Origin: Dechloromonas denitrificans
Lineage (GTDB): Bacteria > Pseudomonadota > Gammaproteobacteria > Burkholderiales > Rhodocyclaceae
NCBI RefSeq assembly: GCF_020510665.1
Contig: NZ_CP075187.1
Coordinates: 764,501-828,500, forward strand
DNA length: 64,000 nt
Reading direction: 5' to 3'
This document shows, in pieces, positions 10,741 through 62,956 of this stretch (positions within the stretch are counted from its first letter, which is position 1; each line of letters starts with the position of its first letter). The position numbers were made by a program, and so were the translations under genes. The notes under the pieces are model-generated. The model saw nothing but the letters and a program-made list of their open reading frames with translations, had not been told where the DNA came from and made no database searches.

Positions 10741-10844
10741 CCCATTCGGGGTTAGTTGAACGATTTTTGGCCGACAACTTTTGGCTGTTTGATACGTTCA
10801 AGGCCCTTTGGCTCGATTGAAGACTTTTTGGATTGTTCGCATAT

Positions 10845-12707
10845 ATGAAACCGAATGCATTGCTCGTTCTGCTCCTTTCCGTTGTTTTTCCCACCCTTGG
10901 CCATAGTGCGCCGAGTTCGGAGGCACAGGGGACGTTGAAGGAGATAGCGCAGAAGGCAGTGCTGAACAGTCCTGAAGTGACGTCGAAGTGGCACAACTAC
11001 AAGGCCGCGGAAGAAGAGATTGGTGTTGGCCGGGGCGGCTACTTTCCGCGGGTTGATTTCACGGCCGGGACCGGCCGGGAAAGCCTGGAACAAGCCCCGA
11101 GCAGCACGACGAACAAATACACGCGCAGCGGCTACGGCCTGAGCCTGAACCAGATCCTGTTCGACGGCTTTGCCACGCGCAACGAAGTTCGTCGCCTGGA
11201 CAAGGCCCGGCTGGTTCGTTACTACGAACTGCTGGACGCCTCGGAAGCCGTTGCCCTGGAAGCCTCGCGCGCCTACCTTGATGTGCTGCGCTACCGCTTC
11301 CTGGTCAATCTGGCCGAAGACAACTACGTCCAGCACAAAGCGACCCACGAACAACTGCTGCGTCGTACGCAATCAGGCGTTGGTCGTCGGGTCGACCTTG
11401 AGCAAGCCGGCAGCCGCCTGGCCCTGGCCGAAATCAACCTGACCACCGAAACCGCCAACCTGCACGACGTCACGGCCCGCTACCAGCGCATCGTGAACAG
11501 CCAGCCGCCCAGCGTGATCGTTCCACCCAGCCAGGTTAGCAGCGGCTTGCCCGCCAGCCAGAAAGCTGCGCTGGACGTTCTGTACAAGAAAAACCCGACC
11601 CTGCTCGCCGCCGTCGAGAACACCGAAGCCGCCCAAAGCGAACTGGACGTCCGTCGCGCTGCCTACTCCCCCAAACTGGACCTGCGCGCCCGGACCGACA
11701 GCACCGACAACTACCTGGGCGCCAAAGGCGAACGGAACTACACCGTCGGCGAACTCGTCGTCAGCTTCAACCTCTTCAACGGCGGCGCCGACCGAGCCCG
11801 TGAAAAGCAATACATCGAGCGCAAGAACCTCTCGCTCGACCTACGGGAAAAAGCCTGCCGCGACACCCGGCAAACCCTGGCCATCGCCTACAACGACGTC
11901 GCCCGCCTGCGCGAACAAGCCACCGCCCTGGCCACCCAGGTCAGCCTGCTGGAAAAGACCCGTGACGCCTATCGCGACCAGTTCAACGTCGGTCAGCGCA
12001 CCCTGCTCGACCTGCTCGACACCGAAAACGAATTGCTCAGTGCGCGTCGCAACGCAGTCAATGCAGACTCCGACCTGAGCCTCGCCTACCTGCGGACCTA
12101 CGCCGGCATGGGCACACTCCTTGAACACCTGGGCCTGCAAAAGCTCGACACGCCGACCCCGGAAGCGAAAGAACTCGCCCAGGTCGACCTGGCAGAACTC
12201 TGCCCGAACGAAACCGCAGGCGTGCCGGTCCCGGATCGTGAAGCACTGAATGCCCGTGCGATGGCCCAACTGCAAGTCAAGCCAGCCCCCTTCGTGCCCG
12301 CAGCCTCGCCGGTCGCCGCAACCGCACCGGACAGCGAAGTCCTTTCGCGGGTCAAGGGCTGGGCAGCAGCCTGGGCGGCGAAAGACTACAACGCCTACAG
12401 CGGCTTCTATGCGCCGACCTTCACGCCGGATGGTGGGCTATCGCGGGAAGACTGGGCGCAACTGCGTCGCAGCCGTATCTCGACGCGTGAGCACATCAAT
12501 GTTGAATTGCAGGATGTTAGCGTTCGGATGGAAGGTGCCGATCGTGCGCAAGTCAGTTTCCGCCAGATCTATCAGTCGAACCGCTATAACGACACGACGC
12601 AGAAGGCCCTGGAAATGATTCTGGTTGGTGGCAAGTGGCTGATCAACCGCGAGAGCTCGGTACCTTGCGGCGGTAGCACCACCGGTGGATGCAAGTCCGT
12701 CAAGTAA
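10845..12707 (+). CDS. TolC-family outer membrane channel fused to a C-terminal NTF2-like domain
   Basis: 620 residues from the ATG at 10845; a TTG at 10833 is also in frame. A signal peptide (LLVLLLSVVFPTLGHSA) precedes a TolC/LapE-like domain (about 35-430) with the duplicated helical pattern LKEIAQKAVLNSPEV, YGLSLNQILFDGF and YTVGELVVSFNLFNGG. TolC proteins form the outer membrane duct of type I secretion or efflux. An Ala/Pro linker (about 455-505) leads to a C-terminal domain (about 505-605, VKGWAAAWAAKDYNAYSGFYAPTF region), which resembles the NTF2-like dimerisation domain seen on some L,D-transpeptidase-type proteins. No inner-membrane partner genes are adjacent. Codon usage between about 11,100 and 12,340 is more C/G-ending than at either end of the gene. 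Confidence 0.85.
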   Translation: MKPNALLVLLLSVVFPTLGHSAPSSEAQGTLKEIAQKAVLNSPEVTSKWHNYKAAEEEIGVGRGGYFPRVDFTAGTGRESLEQAPSSTTNKYTRSGYGLSLNQILFDGFATRNEVRRLDKARLVRYYELLDASEAVALEASRAYLDVLRYRFLVNLAEDNYVQHKATHEQLLRRTQSGVGRRVDLEQAGSRLALAEINLTTETANLHDVTARYQRIVNSQPPSVIVPPSQVSSGLPASQKAALDVLYKKNPTLLAAVENTEAAQSELDVRRAAYSPKLDLRARTDSTDNYLGAKGERNYTVGELVVSFNLFNGGADRAREKQYIERKNLSLDLREKACRDTRQTLAIAYNDVARLREQATALATQVSLLEKTRDAYRDQFNVGQRTLLDLLDTENELLSARRNAVNADSDLSLAYLRTYAGMGTLLEHLGLQKLDTPTPEAKELAQVDLAELCPNETAGVPVPDREALNARAMAQLQVKPAPFVPAASPVAATAPDSEVLSRVKGWAAAWAAKDYNAYSGFYAPTFTPDGGLSREDWAQLRRSRISTREHINVELQDVSVRMEGADRAQVSFRQIYQSNRYNDTTQKALEMILVGGKWLINRESSVPCGGSTTGGCKSVK

Positions 12708-12752: not shown

Positions 12753-12780
12753 AAAAGGCCACGCAATTGCGTGGCCTTTT
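12753..12780 (+). terminator. Terminator hairpin of the tolC-like gene, left copy of the IS direct repeat
   Basis: A perfect 28-bp palindrome (AAAAGGCCACGC...GCGTGGCCTTTT) lies 45 bp after the tolC-like stop. It directly abuts the left end of the insertion sequence. An identical copy abuts the right end at 14382-14409, so the whole hairpin is the target duplication. The palindrome ends exactly where the duplication ends. Confidence 0.95.
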
Positions 12781-12792
12781 CAGACCGCTGAC

Positions 12793-12827
12793 AAAGCCTC
12801 CAAGCGATTGGGGGCTTTATTTTTTAT
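12793..12827 (+). terminator. IS left-end inward-facing terminator hairpin
   Basis: AAAGCCTCC pairs with GGGGGCTTT (9 bp with one T-G pair) across an 8-nt loop, and ATTTTTT follows on the + strand. It would stop transcripts entering the element from the left, just before the transposase promoter box TATAAT (12825-12830). The same hairpin is at 62887-62912 in copy 2. Confidence 0.75.
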
Positions 12828-12836
12828 AATGTCGGC

Positions 12837-14309
12837 ATGCTCAAACCTGCCTACCCCGCCCAAACGGAACTGGAGATGGTGACGTTGGAGCAATTGGTCC
12901 CGAAAGACCACTTGCTCCGGCTGCTCGACCAACACATCCGGTTTGATTTCATTCGTGAAGCGACCCAGCACCTGTATTGCGAGAACAATGGCCGACCGGC
13001 GATTGATCCGGTGGTGTTGTTCAAGATGCTGTTTATTGGCTACTTGTTCGGGATTCGCTCCGAGCGCCGGCTGGTGAAGGAAATCGAGGTCAATGTGGCT
13101 TACCGCTGGTTTCTCGGCTTTCGGCTGACGGACAAAGTGCCAGATGCCTCGACGCTGTCGCAGAATCGCCGTCGCCGCTTTGTCGGGACGGACATTGAGC
13201 AACGCATCTTTGACGGGATTGTCGAGCAAGCCATTGAGCATAAGCTGATTGGCGGGCGGGTGCTGTACACCGACAGTACCCACCTGAAGGCGAACGCGAA
13301 CAAGCGGCACTTTGAAGTGCATCAGGTTGAGCAAACCCCTGCGGCCTACCTGGCCGAACTGGATGCAGCCATCGAAACGGACCGAGCCGCCGCGGGCAAG
13401 AAGCCGCTCAAGCGTGATGACGATGATTCGACACCGCCGATGAAGGAGGTCAAGGTCAGCACGGTCGATCCCGACGCAGGTTTCATGGCCCGCGACAACA
13501 AGCCGACCGGCTTCTTCTATCTGGATCACCGGACTGTCGATGGCGTGCATGCTTTGATCGTCGATACCCATGTCACGCCGGGCAATGTCCATGACAGCCA
13601 GCCCTACCTTGCCCGCCTGGATCGGGTCATGGAGCGCTTTGATCTGGCCGTGGGCGCCGTCGGGCTGGATGCCGGGTATTTCACCCCGCAAGTCTGCAAG
13701 GGCATTCTCGAGCGGGCACTGTTCGGGGTGATGGGCTACAAGCGACCCACACACCGCGATGGCTATTTCTACAAACGGGACTATCTCTACGATGCGGTCC
13801 AGGACTGCTACCGCTGCCCGGCCGGGGAGGTTCTACCGTACCGGACGACCAACCGGCTGGGTTATCGCGAATACGCCTCGAACCCGGCGCGGTGTGCCGA
13901 TTGCGGCGTGCGCGGGCAATGCACGCAGAGCCGGAACCATCAGAAGCTCGTGACCCGGCATCTCTGGGAAGGTTTCAAGGAAGCGATCAACGCCAATCGC
14001 CTGAGCGACCTGGGCAAACGGCTGTACGCCCGGCGCAAGGAAACGGTGGAGCGCAGTTTTGCCGATGCCAAGGAGTTGCACGGCCACCGTTACGCCCGTT
14101 TCCGTGGCTTGGCCAAGGTGCAAGCGCAGTGCCTGCTCTCGGCGGCCTGTCAGAACATGAAGAAGATGGCCCTGTTGCTGGCCCGCAAGGCGGCAGCCTT
14201 ATTGGCCAAAATCCTCGCACGAACCCGTTTTGCCGCCCCATTCGCCCGCCATCTTTGGCAGATCGGGGTTCCTAACCTGAATTTCAGAATCCGCCTCGCT
14301 TCGGCTTGA
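12837..14309 (+). CDS. IS1182-family DDE transposase, copy 1
   Basis: 490 residues. It catalyses cut and insertion of the element. The N-terminal region (LEQLVPKDHLLRLLDQHIRFDF, then RPAIDPVVLFKMLFIGYLFGIRSERRL) is typical of IS1182/IS5-related transposases. DDE-type blocks follow, with LYTDSTHLKANANK and AVGLDAGYFTPQV, and a Cys-rich stretch CADCGVRGQCTQS precedes the C-terminal ERSFADAKELHGHRYARFRG. TATAAT at 12825-12830 would start transcription at or next to the first ATG, so that form would be leaderless. An in-frame ATG at 12876 has GGAA upstream and is the alternative start. It differs from copy 2 at about four residues. Confidence 0.93.
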   Translation: MLKPAYPAQTELEMVTLEQLVPKDHLLRLLDQHIRFDFIREATQHLYCENNGRPAIDPVVLFKMLFIGYLFGIRSERRLVKEIEVNVAYRWFLGFRLTDKVPDASTLSQNRRRRFVGTDIEQRIFDGIVEQAIEHKLIGGRVLYTDSTHLKANANKRHFEVHQVEQTPAAYLAELDAAIETDRAAAGKKPLKRDDDDSTPPMKEVKVSTVDPDAGFMARDNKPTGFFYLDHRTVDGVHALIVDTHVTPGNVHDSQPYLARLDRVMERFDLAVGAVGLDAGYFTPQVCKGILERALFGVMGYKRPTHRDGYFYKRDYLYDAVQDCYRCPAGEVLPYRTTNRLGYREYASNPARCADCGVRGQCTQSRNHQKLVTRHLWEGFKEAINANRLSDLGKRLYARRKETVERSFADAKELHGHRYARFRGLAKVQAQCLLSAACQNMKKMALLLARKAAALLAKILARTRFAAPFARHLWQIGVPNLNFRIRLASA

Positions 14310-14346
14310 AGCCAGGAGTCTCCCTGATTTCCAACCAGAAAAACAA

Positions 14347-14368
14347 AACCCCCGAAAAATCGGGGGTT
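14347..14368 (-). terminator. IS right-end inward-facing terminator hairpin
   Basis: AACCCCCGA and TCGGGGGTT form a 9-bp stem with a 4-nt loop. Read on the minus strand it is followed by TTTTGTTTTT. It would stop transcripts entering the element from the right. The equivalent in copy 2 is at 61337-61358. Confidence 0.75.
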
Positions 14369-14381
14369 CGTCAGCAGTCTG

Positions 14382-14409
14382 AAAAGGCCACGCAATTGCG
14401 TGGCCTTTT
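14382..14409 (+). repeat. Right copy of the 28-bp hairpin direct repeat
   Basis: Identical to 12753-12780 and directly next to the right end of the insertion sequence. It is followed by two more T, which are probably the rest of the original terminator T-tract. Confidence 0.95.
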
Positions 14410-14428: not shown

Positions 14429-15139
14429 TCAGGGGGATGTTTCAACCGGTGCGATGAAGACATAGCCTTGCAGGCGCAATGTCTTGATGAAGCTGCTGCC
14501 ATCGGCTTGTTTGCCAAGAATGCGTCGAATCTGGCTGACGTGTACGTCAATGATCCGGTCGTAAGGTGTGTGTTCCCGTTTCAGGACCCGAGAGAGATGT
14601 TCGCGTGAGAGGGGTTCGAACGGGTGGTCGAGAAAGGATGAGAGCAGGGCGTAGCCAGGCACGCCGATCGGTGTCGGTCGGCCGTCTTGGTTGATCAGTT
14701 CGCGTGAGGCTGTATCCAGGGTCCATTGTCCGAAACGGATATGTCGCGCATCGTTGCGTGTCGGCAGAGCCGTACGGGCCTGACTGCGGCGCAGCAAGCC
14801 GCGGACTCGGGCCAGTAGTTCGCGCATGTTGCAGGGTTTGGGCATGAAATCATCAGCCCCGATTTCTATGCCAATGATGCGTTCGATTTCATCGGAGCGT
14901 GTCGAGTGAATCAGGACGGGGATTTCGGATTGCTGCCTCAGTTGTCGAAGCAGTTCCATGCCGTCTGCGTCGGGAAGGCTTAGGTCGAGGATGATGACGT
15001 CCGGGTTTTCACCCAGCTGGCGCCACATTGCAGCACCATTTTCGGCAAAGAGACATTCGATTCCTGCGGAGGCCAGGGTGGTCCGAAGGACGTGCCGTGT
15101 GCCAGGATCGTCTTCAACAATGAGCGCTGTCTGACGCAT
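14429..15139 (-). CDS. OmpR/PhoB-type DNA-binding response regulator
   Basis: 236 residues from the ATG at 15139; a TTG at 15157 is the other candidate. The receiver domain (1-120) has the acidic pocket E9-D10-D11, phospho-acceptor D52 in VIILDLSLPDADG, and conserved Lys in DDFMPKPCN. The C-terminal winged helix (about 140-232) shows YDRIIDVHVSQIRRILG and IKTLRLQGYVF. It is divergent from the Hpt/hybrid-kinase genes, which probably supply its phosphate. Its stop is close to the right hairpin of the insertion sequence. Confidence 0.93.
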   Translation of the reverse strand: MRQTALIVEDDPGTRHVLRTTLASAGIECLFAENGAAMWRQLGENPDVIILDLSLPDADGMELLRQLRQQSEIPVLIHSTRSDEIERIIGIEIGADDFMPKPCNMRELLARVRGLLRRSQARTALPTRNDARHIRFGQWTLDTASRELINQDGRPTPIGVPGYALLSSFLDHPFEPLSREHLSRVLKREHTPYDRIIDVHVSQIRRILGKQADGSSFIKTLRLQGYVFIAPVETSP

Positions 15140-15174
15140 GATGCTCGATTTGGCCAAGATTAAAGGGCGAATTG

Positions 15175-61291: not shown

Positions 61292-61323
61292 AAAAGCCAC
61301 ACCCTGTTGGGGGTGTGGCTTTT
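61292..61323 (+). terminator. Terminator hairpin of aroG, left copy of the IS direct repeat
   Basis: A 13-bp stem (AAAAGCCACACCC / GGGTGTGGCTTTT) with loop TGTTGG, 32 bp in total, lies 66 bp after the aroG stop. It directly abuts the left end of insertion sequence copy 2. An identical copy is at 62925-62956. The sequence is unrelated to the 28-bp repeat of copy 1. Confidence 0.95.
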
Positions 61324-62924
61324 CAGACTGCTGACGAACCCCCGATTTTTCGGGGGTTTTGTTTTTCTGGTTGGAAATCAGGGAGACTCCTGGCTTCAAG
61401 CCGAAGCGAGGCGGATTCTGAAATTCAGGTTAGGAACCCCGATCTGCCAAAGATGGCGGGCGAATGGGGCGGCAAAACGGGTTCGTGCGAGGATTTTGGC
61501 CAATAAGGCTGCCGCCTTGCGGGCCAGCAACAGGGCCATCTTCTTCATGTTCTGACAGGCCGCCGAGAGCAGGCACTGCGCTTGCACCTTGGCCAAGCCA
61601 CGGAAACGGGCGTAACGGTGGCCGTGCAACTCCTTGGCATCGGCAAAGCTGCGCTCCACTGTTTCCTTGCGCCGGGCGTACAGCCGTTTGCCCAGGTCGC
61701 TCAGGCGATTGGCGTTGATCGCTTCCTTGAAACCTTCCCAGAGATGCCGGGTCACGAGCTTCTGATGGTTCCGGCTCTGCGTGCATTGCCCGCGCACGGC
61801 GCAATCGGCACACCGCGCCGGGTTCGAGGCGTATTCCCGATAGCCCAGCCGATTGGTCGTCCGGTACGGTAGAACTTCCCCGGCCGGGCAGCGGTAGCAG
61901 TCCTGGACCGCATCGTAGAGATAGTCCCGTTTGTAGAAATAGCCATCGCGGTGTGTGGGTCGCTTGTAGCCCATCACCCCGAACAGTGCCCGCTCGAGAA
62001 TGCCCTTGCAGACTTGCGGGGTGAAATACCCGGCATCCAGCCCGACGGCGCCCACGGCCAGATCAAAGCGCTCCATGACCCGATCCAGGCGGGCAAGGTA
62101 GGGCTGGCTGTCATGGACATTGCCCGGCGTGACATGGGTATCGACGATCAAAGCATGCACGCCATCGACAGTCCGGTGATCCAGATAGAAGAAGCCGGTC
62201 GGCTTGTTGTCGCGGGCCATGAAACCTGCGTCGGGATCGACCGTGCTGACCTTGACCTCCTTCATCGGCGGTGTCGAATCATCGTCATCACGCTTGAGCG
62301 GCTTCTTGCCCGCGGCGGCTCGGTCCGTTTCGATGGCTGCATCCAGTTCGGCCAGGTAGGCCGCAGGGGTTTGCTCAACCTGATGCACTTCAAAGTGCCG
62401 CTTGTTCGCGTTCGCCTTCAGGTGGGTACTGTCGGTGTACAGCACCCGCCCGCCAATCAGCTTATGCTCAATGGCTTGCTCGACAATCCCGTCAAAGATG
62501 CGTTGCTCAATGTCCGTCCCGACAAAGCGGCGACGGCGATTCTGCGACAGCGTCGAGGCATCTGGCACTTTGTCCGTCAGCCGAAAGCCGAGAAACCAGC
62601 GGTAAGCCACATTGACCTCGATTTCCTTCACCAGCCGGCGCTCGGAGCGAATCCCGAACAAGTAGCCAATGAACAACATCTTGAACAACACCACCGGATC
62701 AATCGCGGGTCGGCCATTGTTCTCGCAATACAGGTGCTGGGTCGCTTCACGAATGAAATTAAACCGGATGTGCTGGTCGAGCAGCCGGAGCCAGTGGTCT
62801 TTCGGGACCAATTGCTCCAACGTCACCATCTCCAGTTCCGTTTGGGCAGGGTAGACAGGCTTGAGCATACCTGCATTATAAAAAATAAAGCCCCCAATCG
62901 CTTGGAGGCTTTGTCAGCGGTCTG
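61324..62924 (-). mobile_element. IS1182-like insertion sequence, copy 2 (1601 bp)
   Basis: Same length, ends and gene as copy 1, but inverted. Ends are CAGACTGCTGAC at the left and GTCAGCGGTCTG at the right. It is flanked by 32-bp direct repeats that are the complete aroG terminator hairpin. Internal inward-facing hairpins are at 61337-61358 and 62887-62912. The right end lies 119 bp before the first CRISPR repeat. Confidence 0.95.
61396..62868 (-). CDS. IS1182-family DDE transposase, copy 2
   Basis: 490 residues. It differs from copy 1 at about four positions: A5V, L26W, D37N and a Gly-to-Ala change in the CADC-VRGQC stretch. There is also scattered silent change, so the copies are close but not fresh duplicates. 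TATAAT lies immediately upstream of the ATG as in copy 1, while the six bases between them differ (GCAGGT here, GTCGGC in copy 1). Transcription runs towards aroG. Confidence 0.93.
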   Translation of the reverse strand: MLKPVYPAQTELEMVTLEQLVPKDHWLRLLDQHIRFNFIREATQHLYCENNGRPAIDPVVLFKMLFIGYLFGIRSERRLVKEIEVNVAYRWFLGFRLTDKVPDASTLSQNRRRRFVGTDIEQRIFDGIVEQAIEHKLIGGRVLYTDSTHLKANANKRHFEVHQVEQTPAAYLAELDAAIETDRAAAGKKPLKRDDDDSTPPMKEVKVSTVDPDAGFMARDNKPTGFFYLDHRTVDGVHALIVDTHVTPGNVHDSQPYLARLDRVMERFDLAVGAVGLDAGYFTPQVCKGILERALFGVMGYKRPTHRDGYFYKRDYLYDAVQDCYRCPAGEVLPYRTTNRLGYREYASNPARCADCAVRGQCTQSRNHQKLVTRHLWEGFKEAINANRLSDLGKRLYARRKETVERSFADAKELHGHRYARFRGLAKVQAQCLLSAACQNMKKMALLLARKAAALLAKILARTRFAAPFARHLWQIGVPNLNFRIRLASA

Positions 62925-62956
62925 AAAAGCCACACCCTGTTGGGGGTGTGGCTTTT
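62925..62956 (+). repeat. Right copy of the 32-bp hairpin direct repeat
   Basis: Identical to 61292-61323, directly next to the right end of insertion sequence copy 2 and followed by three more T of the original terminator. Confidence 0.95.

Follow-up and report, generated by a model that had tools for sequence, protein, structure and literature searches.

Introduction

An insertion sequence in the chromosome of Dechloromonas denitrificans is framed by two copies of a long palindrome located at the end of a gene, and this locus raises the question of whether a transposable element can select a folded target and duplicate the fold as a whole. DDE transposases usually generate target duplications whose length is a constant of the enzyme, determined by a fixed stagger; by contrast, the duplication length in the present element tracks the folded target, while the cuts remain symmetric. 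The locus is contained in a window of 64,000 nucleotides (contig NZ_CP075187.1, positions 764,501 to 828,500), i.e., the whole stretch of DNA analyzed here. An earlier note, prepared from the letters of this window, had suggested that a hairpin or cruciform is recognized and cut at its base. Herein, all copies of the element in the genome, their predicted empty sites, and relatives of the element in public genomes are compared, and we consider it probable that this DDE element, a member of one clade of the IS1182 family, targets DNA hairpins without a fixed sequence, mostly intrinsic terminators, and that the whole hairpin (13–32 bp) is duplicated via a cruciform.

The Element and Its Target in the Window

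The features of the window are listed in Table 1. The transposase scored 475.3 bits against the NCBIfam model of the IS1182 family (NF033551; curated cut-off, 270), and the element has the layout of this family, in which one DDE transposase is framed by short terminal inverted repeats. The IS5 family was also considered and rejected because the score against NF033581 (108.5 bits) was below the curated cut-off of 140. An AlphaFold2 model obtained from a 70-sequence alignment (pLDDT 83.9) predicts a Tn5-like DDE fold, and a model from a 13-sequence alignment was dropped because its pLDDT was only 50.3. When solved structures were searched by sequence with the transposase, no relative was found, the top rows being ribosomal protein L13 (E 0.005).

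Table 1. Coordinates of the insertion sequence copies, target hairpins, and neighboring genes in the window.
Feature	Position	Strand	Basis
IS1182-family insertion sequence, window copy 1, 1601 bp	12781..14381	+	20 genome copies and NF033551
Left terminal inverted repeat	12781..12796	+	Matches the right end, read on the other strand, at 13/16 bases
Right terminal inverted repeat	14366..14381	-	Same end-to-end comparison, 13/16 bases
Transposase, 490 aa, likely triad D146, D278, E405	12837..14309	+	Pfam, NCBIfam, conserved columns, AlphaFold2, fold comparison
Inward-facing terminator-like hairpin with T tract, inside the left end	12793..12825	+	Sequence, RNA fold
Inward-facing terminator-like hairpin (14347–14368) with T tract, inside the right end	14338..14368	-	Sequence, RNA fold
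Duplicated 28-bp target hairpin, left copy, perfect palindrome	12753..12780	.	Identical to 14382–14409; single at the empty site of G222
Duplicated 28-bp target hairpin, right copy	14382..14409	.	Identical to 12753–12780
Gene upstream of the terminator, TolC-like outer membrane efflux protein	10833..12707	+	Pfam OEP
Convergent gene downstream of the terminator, response regulator	14429..15157	-	Pfam Response_reg, Trans_reg_C
Second window copy (L008; chromosome 825824–827424)	61324..62924	-	Genome copy search
Target hairpin of copy 2, 32 bp, left	61292..61323	.	Duplication analysis
Target hairpin of copy 2, 32 bp, right	62925..62956	.	Duplication analysis

The two 28-bp palindromes directly adjoin the ends of copy 1. 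The description of these sequences in the earlier note as identical and perfectly palindromic was confirmed, each consisting of 14 + 14 bases. Its assignment of the palindrome to the terminator of the tolC-like gene likewise stands, in that the hairpin is of the terminator type: a T tract is present, the left palindrome and its flanking sequence fold at -27.1 kcal/mol (shuffle mean, -13.95; z, -4.83), the upstream gene belongs to Pfam OEP, and the response regulator gene beyond the hairpin is convergent.

Copies in the Home Genome and Their Empty Sites

The complete chromosome (3,457,400 bases) contains 19 full-length copies, one split copy (L018 with L021), and one end remnant (L022). Exact hairpin duplications of 17–32 bp were found in 18 of the 20 copies, comprising 17 of the 19 full-length copies and the split copy (25 bp), and the duplications of the remaining two are inexact, i.e., 18 bp with one mismatch in L012 and 18 bp with two mismatches in L013. 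The earlier note had held that copies flanked by repeats other than hairpins would speak against its reading; all 20 copies, including the two with mismatches, carry a hairpin of the terminator type on both sides, and all 20 target sequences are different. The first base of the duplication is A and the last base is T in every home copy. Hairpins present at the sites by chance are excluded because a perfect-stem hairpin lies over 20/20 home sites, compared with 215 (5.4%) of 4000 positions drawn at random from 400 kb of this genome. Furthermore, A and T tracts occur on both sides of 14/20 targets vs 8/45 background terminator-like hairpins (p 1.1e-4). The target stems are longer than those of all background terminator-like hairpins taken together (p 5e-4), but the difference disappears when only background stems of at least 8 bp are considered (p 0.45).

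Two of the incomplete copies have features of their own. Another insertion of ~1.3 kb, whose ends carry GACCCGTCC / GGACGGGTC, is located near the left end of the split copy, and the remnant L022 consists of 50 bases of the left end at a hairpin foot, without a right end. A reading of the orientation of the home copies relative to neighboring genes, based on the longest open frame, was set aside as too crude.

Empty sites were predicted for all 20 sites by joining the flanks with one copy of the duplication, and these were searched in 60 genomes of the genus and then in the nearest one, G222, a sister species in which a search with the element gave no match. In G222, the alignment covers all 300 bases at 16 of the 20 sites, with 90–98% identity and one hairpin each; three sites (L003, L008, and L010) are matched in part, the aligned portion containing one hairpin, and the best alignment for L009 fails to span the site. 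The comparison with empty sites called for in the earlier note therefore revealed one hairpin instead of a tandem pair, and because the empty sites hold a single hairpin, the hairpin was single before insertion and was doubled by it. At the L010 site of G222 (L117), a different insertion of 1356 bases with similar GACCCGTCC ends is present 15 bases rightward of the single hairpin.

Symmetry of the Cuts

The home targets consist of a perfect stem of 8–18 bp and a loop of 2–6 bases (20 sites). Sliding of the duplication borders is precluded by the terminal C and G of the element, which differ from the A and T of the shoulders. The earlier note had equated the borders of the duplication with those of the palindrome, which is correct for the perfectly palindromic 28-bp duplication at the window copy and does not hold in general: in 7/20 home copies, the two cuts coincide with the outermost pair of the perfect stem, in 10/20 both lie equally deep inside it (1–4 pairs), and in 3/20 the left and right depths are unequal by 1–2 bases. 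Equal depth on both sides in 17 of the 20 copies, counted without restriction on the hairpin centre, compares with 4.7 expected, and none of 100,000 permutations gave a count as high; among the copies cut inside the stem, depth is equal in 10 of 13 vs 3.0 by permutation. At the level of sequence, the home copies and the empty sites establish that the element entered a single hairpin, that the duplication corresponds to the hairpin and follows it in length, and that the cuts are symmetric about its centre.

Distribution of the Hairpin Duplication in the IS1182 Family

A search with the family model covered 397 genomes of the phylum, with matches in 53, and 40 further stretches were fetched; plasmid records additionally contributed loci from Klebsiella, Providencia, Bacillus pumilus, and Enterococcus. 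Close relatives in public genomes (60–94% identity) include those of Desulfuromonadales, Acidobacteria, Alteromonadaceae, Pseudoalteromonas, and Zoogloea, and hairpin duplication was found with relatives in four phyla. Hairpin duplications of 13–27 bp are present in 26 of 27 chosen in-clade relatives, loci already seen with two different hairpins or a one-sided hairpin being excluded from the 27, and 24 of the 26 are symmetric. The remaining locus, L039, lacked a duplication in this test, though a decayed one of 16 bases is visible, and duplications read by eye are 17 bp in L146/L147 and 28 bp in L220 (Bacillus pumilus). Equal cut depth was observed in 20 of the 22 relatives that could be located (23 given), in a count that restricts the hairpin centre to the vicinity of the duplication centre and thereby favors symmetry. 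The duplication starts inside the GC stem or at a non-A base in 5 of the 26 relatives, and therefore the foot does not correspond to a single chemically fixed position. Moreover, L041 and L146/L147 have triloop hairpins of 4 and 6 bp without obvious terminator context, suggesting that the hairpin rather than the terminator function is read.

The transposase tree was built from 83 of 98 prepared loci, the others lacking a frame, having only a short one, or being identical in sequence. All hairpin-labelled rows fall in one clade of 30/83 rows with a support of 100/99, which holds all 20 hairpin rows and all four rows with two different hairpins, and 37/37 rows with 4-bp duplications fall outside it; the branches outside the clade are long and unsure, and the label shuffles ignore the kinship of near-copies. 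Before the tree was built, the end calls of L132, L150, L158, L161, L220, L042, L023, and L040 were relabelled by hand, and the in-clade loci L030, L034, and L037 were labelled unknown because the contig starts at the element. Twelve residues distinguish the transposases of the hairpin clade, and in the conserved columns several of these adjoin the likely catalytic residues D146 and E405.

Less regular flanks are also present within the clade. Two different hairpins flank L023, L040, L042, L158, and the three copies L132/L136/L140. The last three (= L025, L026, and L027), from Dechloromonas denitrificans, share three hairpins that are circularly permuted (A|B, B|C, and C|A), and these flanks look like the products of recombination among three clean insertions or of contigs mis-joined at the element. 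The hairpin is one-sided in L144 and L222 (right only in L222) and weak and on one side in L221, and L028 is without a clean pattern. No clean duplication was found in the ISEfa7 copies of Enterococcus plasmids (L221–L225), and one is present in L229, a 78% relative in the genus of ISEfa7. Every clean duplication found among the in-clade loci is a hairpin. Together with the tree, these loci establish hairpin duplication, as judged from flanking sequences, as a trait of one transposase clade.

The groups with 4-bp duplications use a different kind of site. A perfect hairpin lies over 5/41 of these sites, compared with 5.4% of random home-genome positions (p 0.07). A symmetric consensus of ~32 bp, GAAnGTCCGCTTTn-GGCC-nAAAGCGGACnTTC, centred on the duplication, is common to 39 sites of this type (L149–L218 and plasmid loci), and 5.9 of 14 positions in its arms pair vs 3.6 in shuffles; the motif was built from 39 of the 41 sites after two with odd ends were dropped, and related copies are included. 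The home element, with duplications of 17–32 bp, lacks the arrangement in which a palindromic motif is centred on a 4-bp duplication. Because few hairpins lie over the 4-bp sites and a symmetric consensus is common to them, these neighbors appear to read sequence, and the hairpin clade would thus read structure.

Proposed Mechanism and Alternatives

Symmetric cuts that are independent of length point to action on an extruded four-way junction. A single element here produces duplications of 17–32 bp, which a fixed stagger on B-DNA can hardly explain, whereas a cruciform always places both cut sites at its junction. In the proposed mechanism, the terminator palindrome would extrude as a cruciform, a transition that AT-rich flanks may ease, and the transposase would bind the junction and there link each 3′ end of the element to the 5′ foot of a hairpin, after which repair synthesis would copy the hairpin and leave one on each side. 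Branch migration within the A:T shoulder would shift both feet in step, and cut depth could vary with left and right remaining equal because both hairpins of the cruciform are shortened together. The geometry thus leaves recognition of a hairpin or cruciform, as first suggested, as the best reading, with the amendment that the cuts fall within the A:T shoulder and not always at the last pair. Regarding its evolution, we lean toward a switch in this clade from a palindrome read as sequence, with a 4-bp stagger, to capture of the cruciform four-way junction and insertion at both hairpin feet, such that the hairpin sets the length of the duplication.

Among the alternatives, the one that survives best, which we nevertheless regard as unlikely, assumes that the palindrome is recognized in ordinary double-stranded DNA by its A:T to G:C shoulders, with flexible spacing of the active sites and without a hairpin. 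Such recognition would accord with the sister 4-bp groups, in which a palindromic motif is used apparently as B-DNA (39 sites), and with the A-start and T-end of the duplications in 20/20 home copies; however, the stagger would have to range over 13–32 bp and yet remain symmetric, no common sequence extends beyond the shoulders, and the leading A is missing in 5/26 relatives. Slightly less credible is a separate attack on each strand as a single-stranded hairpin, e.g., on the lagging strand or beside an RNA polymerase stalled at the terminator. In line with this possibility, polymerase pauses at terminators and single strands readily fold into hairpins, but independent events should not equalize the cut depth, on which 17/20 copies agree, and 7/20 copies are co-directional with replication, revealing no clear bias in a rough count with the origin assumed near base 1. 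Survivorship, by which insertions occur anywhere and persist at gene ends, where they are harmless, would suit the terminator-type hairpins at all home copies examined; it is refuted as a full account and very improbable, since it cannot render a duplication hairpin-sized and symmetric, two relatives are inserted in hairpins that lack an obvious terminator context, and only 5/41 sites of the 4-bp type are covered by a hairpin. The notion that tandem hairpins pre-existed or that the hairpins belong to the element, for which no supporting point was found, is refuted by the distinct hairpin at each site and the single hairpin at 16/20 full-query sites of G222, and can practically be dismissed.

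Comparison With Known Systems

Two staphylococcal elements of the IS1182 family, IS1272 and TnSha1, are likewise described to target hairpins without a common sequence, many of which are terminators (PMC5678879, PMC4923244), as the 20 different hairpins of the home element do. The outcome differs: in IS1272 and TnSha1, the hairpin is replaced or partly deleted without target duplication (PMC5678879, PMC4923244), whereas the home element duplicates the whole hairpin, which is present on both sides in 20/20 copies and single at the empty sites. A cruciform model for IS1272, with hairpin loss as the observed outcome, was proposed by Wan and colleagues, and duplication through attack at the 5′ feet features in that model only as a hypothetical branch, pathway b (PMC5678879). 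Furthermore, Furi and colleagues described partly deleted hairpins, 5/7 of which were confirmed as terminators by RNA reads (PMC4923244). ISSau3 (L234), a related staphylococcal element, falls outside the hairpin clade on a long, unsure branch.

The 4-bp members, such as ISCfr1 (L227) as well as ISPse1 and ISCaa15 (PMC3281130, PMC3196728), resemble the home element in belonging to the NF033551 family and in having targets centred on a two-fold symmetric site. They lie outside the hairpin clade and differ in that 4 bp are duplicated at the centre of the ~32-bp palindromic consensus, whereas the hairpin clade duplicates the whole hairpin. Insertion sequences targeting REP sequences, e.g., ISPpu9, also select palindromic extragenic sequences, but their target is a repeated sequence family (PMC8450116), whereas the targets of the home element all differ in sequence.

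A 2015 review, as cited in PMC4923244 and PMC5678879, notes that some members of the IS1182 family target palindromes. For hairpin targeting in the IS1182 family, a search of the open-access literature, with ISfinder, TnPedia, and the 2015 review outside its coverage, found only PMC4923244 and PMC5678879. The target behavior of the present element differs from the two published for the family, and ISfinder or the 2015 review may already list palindromic duplications of this length.

Significance and Genomic Arrangement

If the cruciform reading is true, the element reports naturally on cruciforms extruded in living cells, and its family allows targeting by sequence, duplication of hairpins, and their replacement to be compared on one tree. 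The behavior may also offer a safe-site strategy, in which insertion occurs at gene ends and predicted outward terminators are kept on both sides. The earlier note had proposed that a terminator is kept on both sides of the insertion, and, as predicted from sequence, this is borne out only for transcription leaving the element: the flanking hairpins of the home copies have a full T tract facing outward, whereas facing inward they retain just 1–5 T. At each of its ends, window copy 1 carries a terminator-like hairpin of its own that faces inward (Table 1).

Regarding the arrangement of the copies, 8/20 are located within ~340 kb (577–917 kb, the window included) of the 3457-kb chromosome, with a binomial p of 4e-4 for a stretch picked post hoc. 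The two copies in the window are ~47 kb apart in opposite orientation and constitute a possible inversion substrate.
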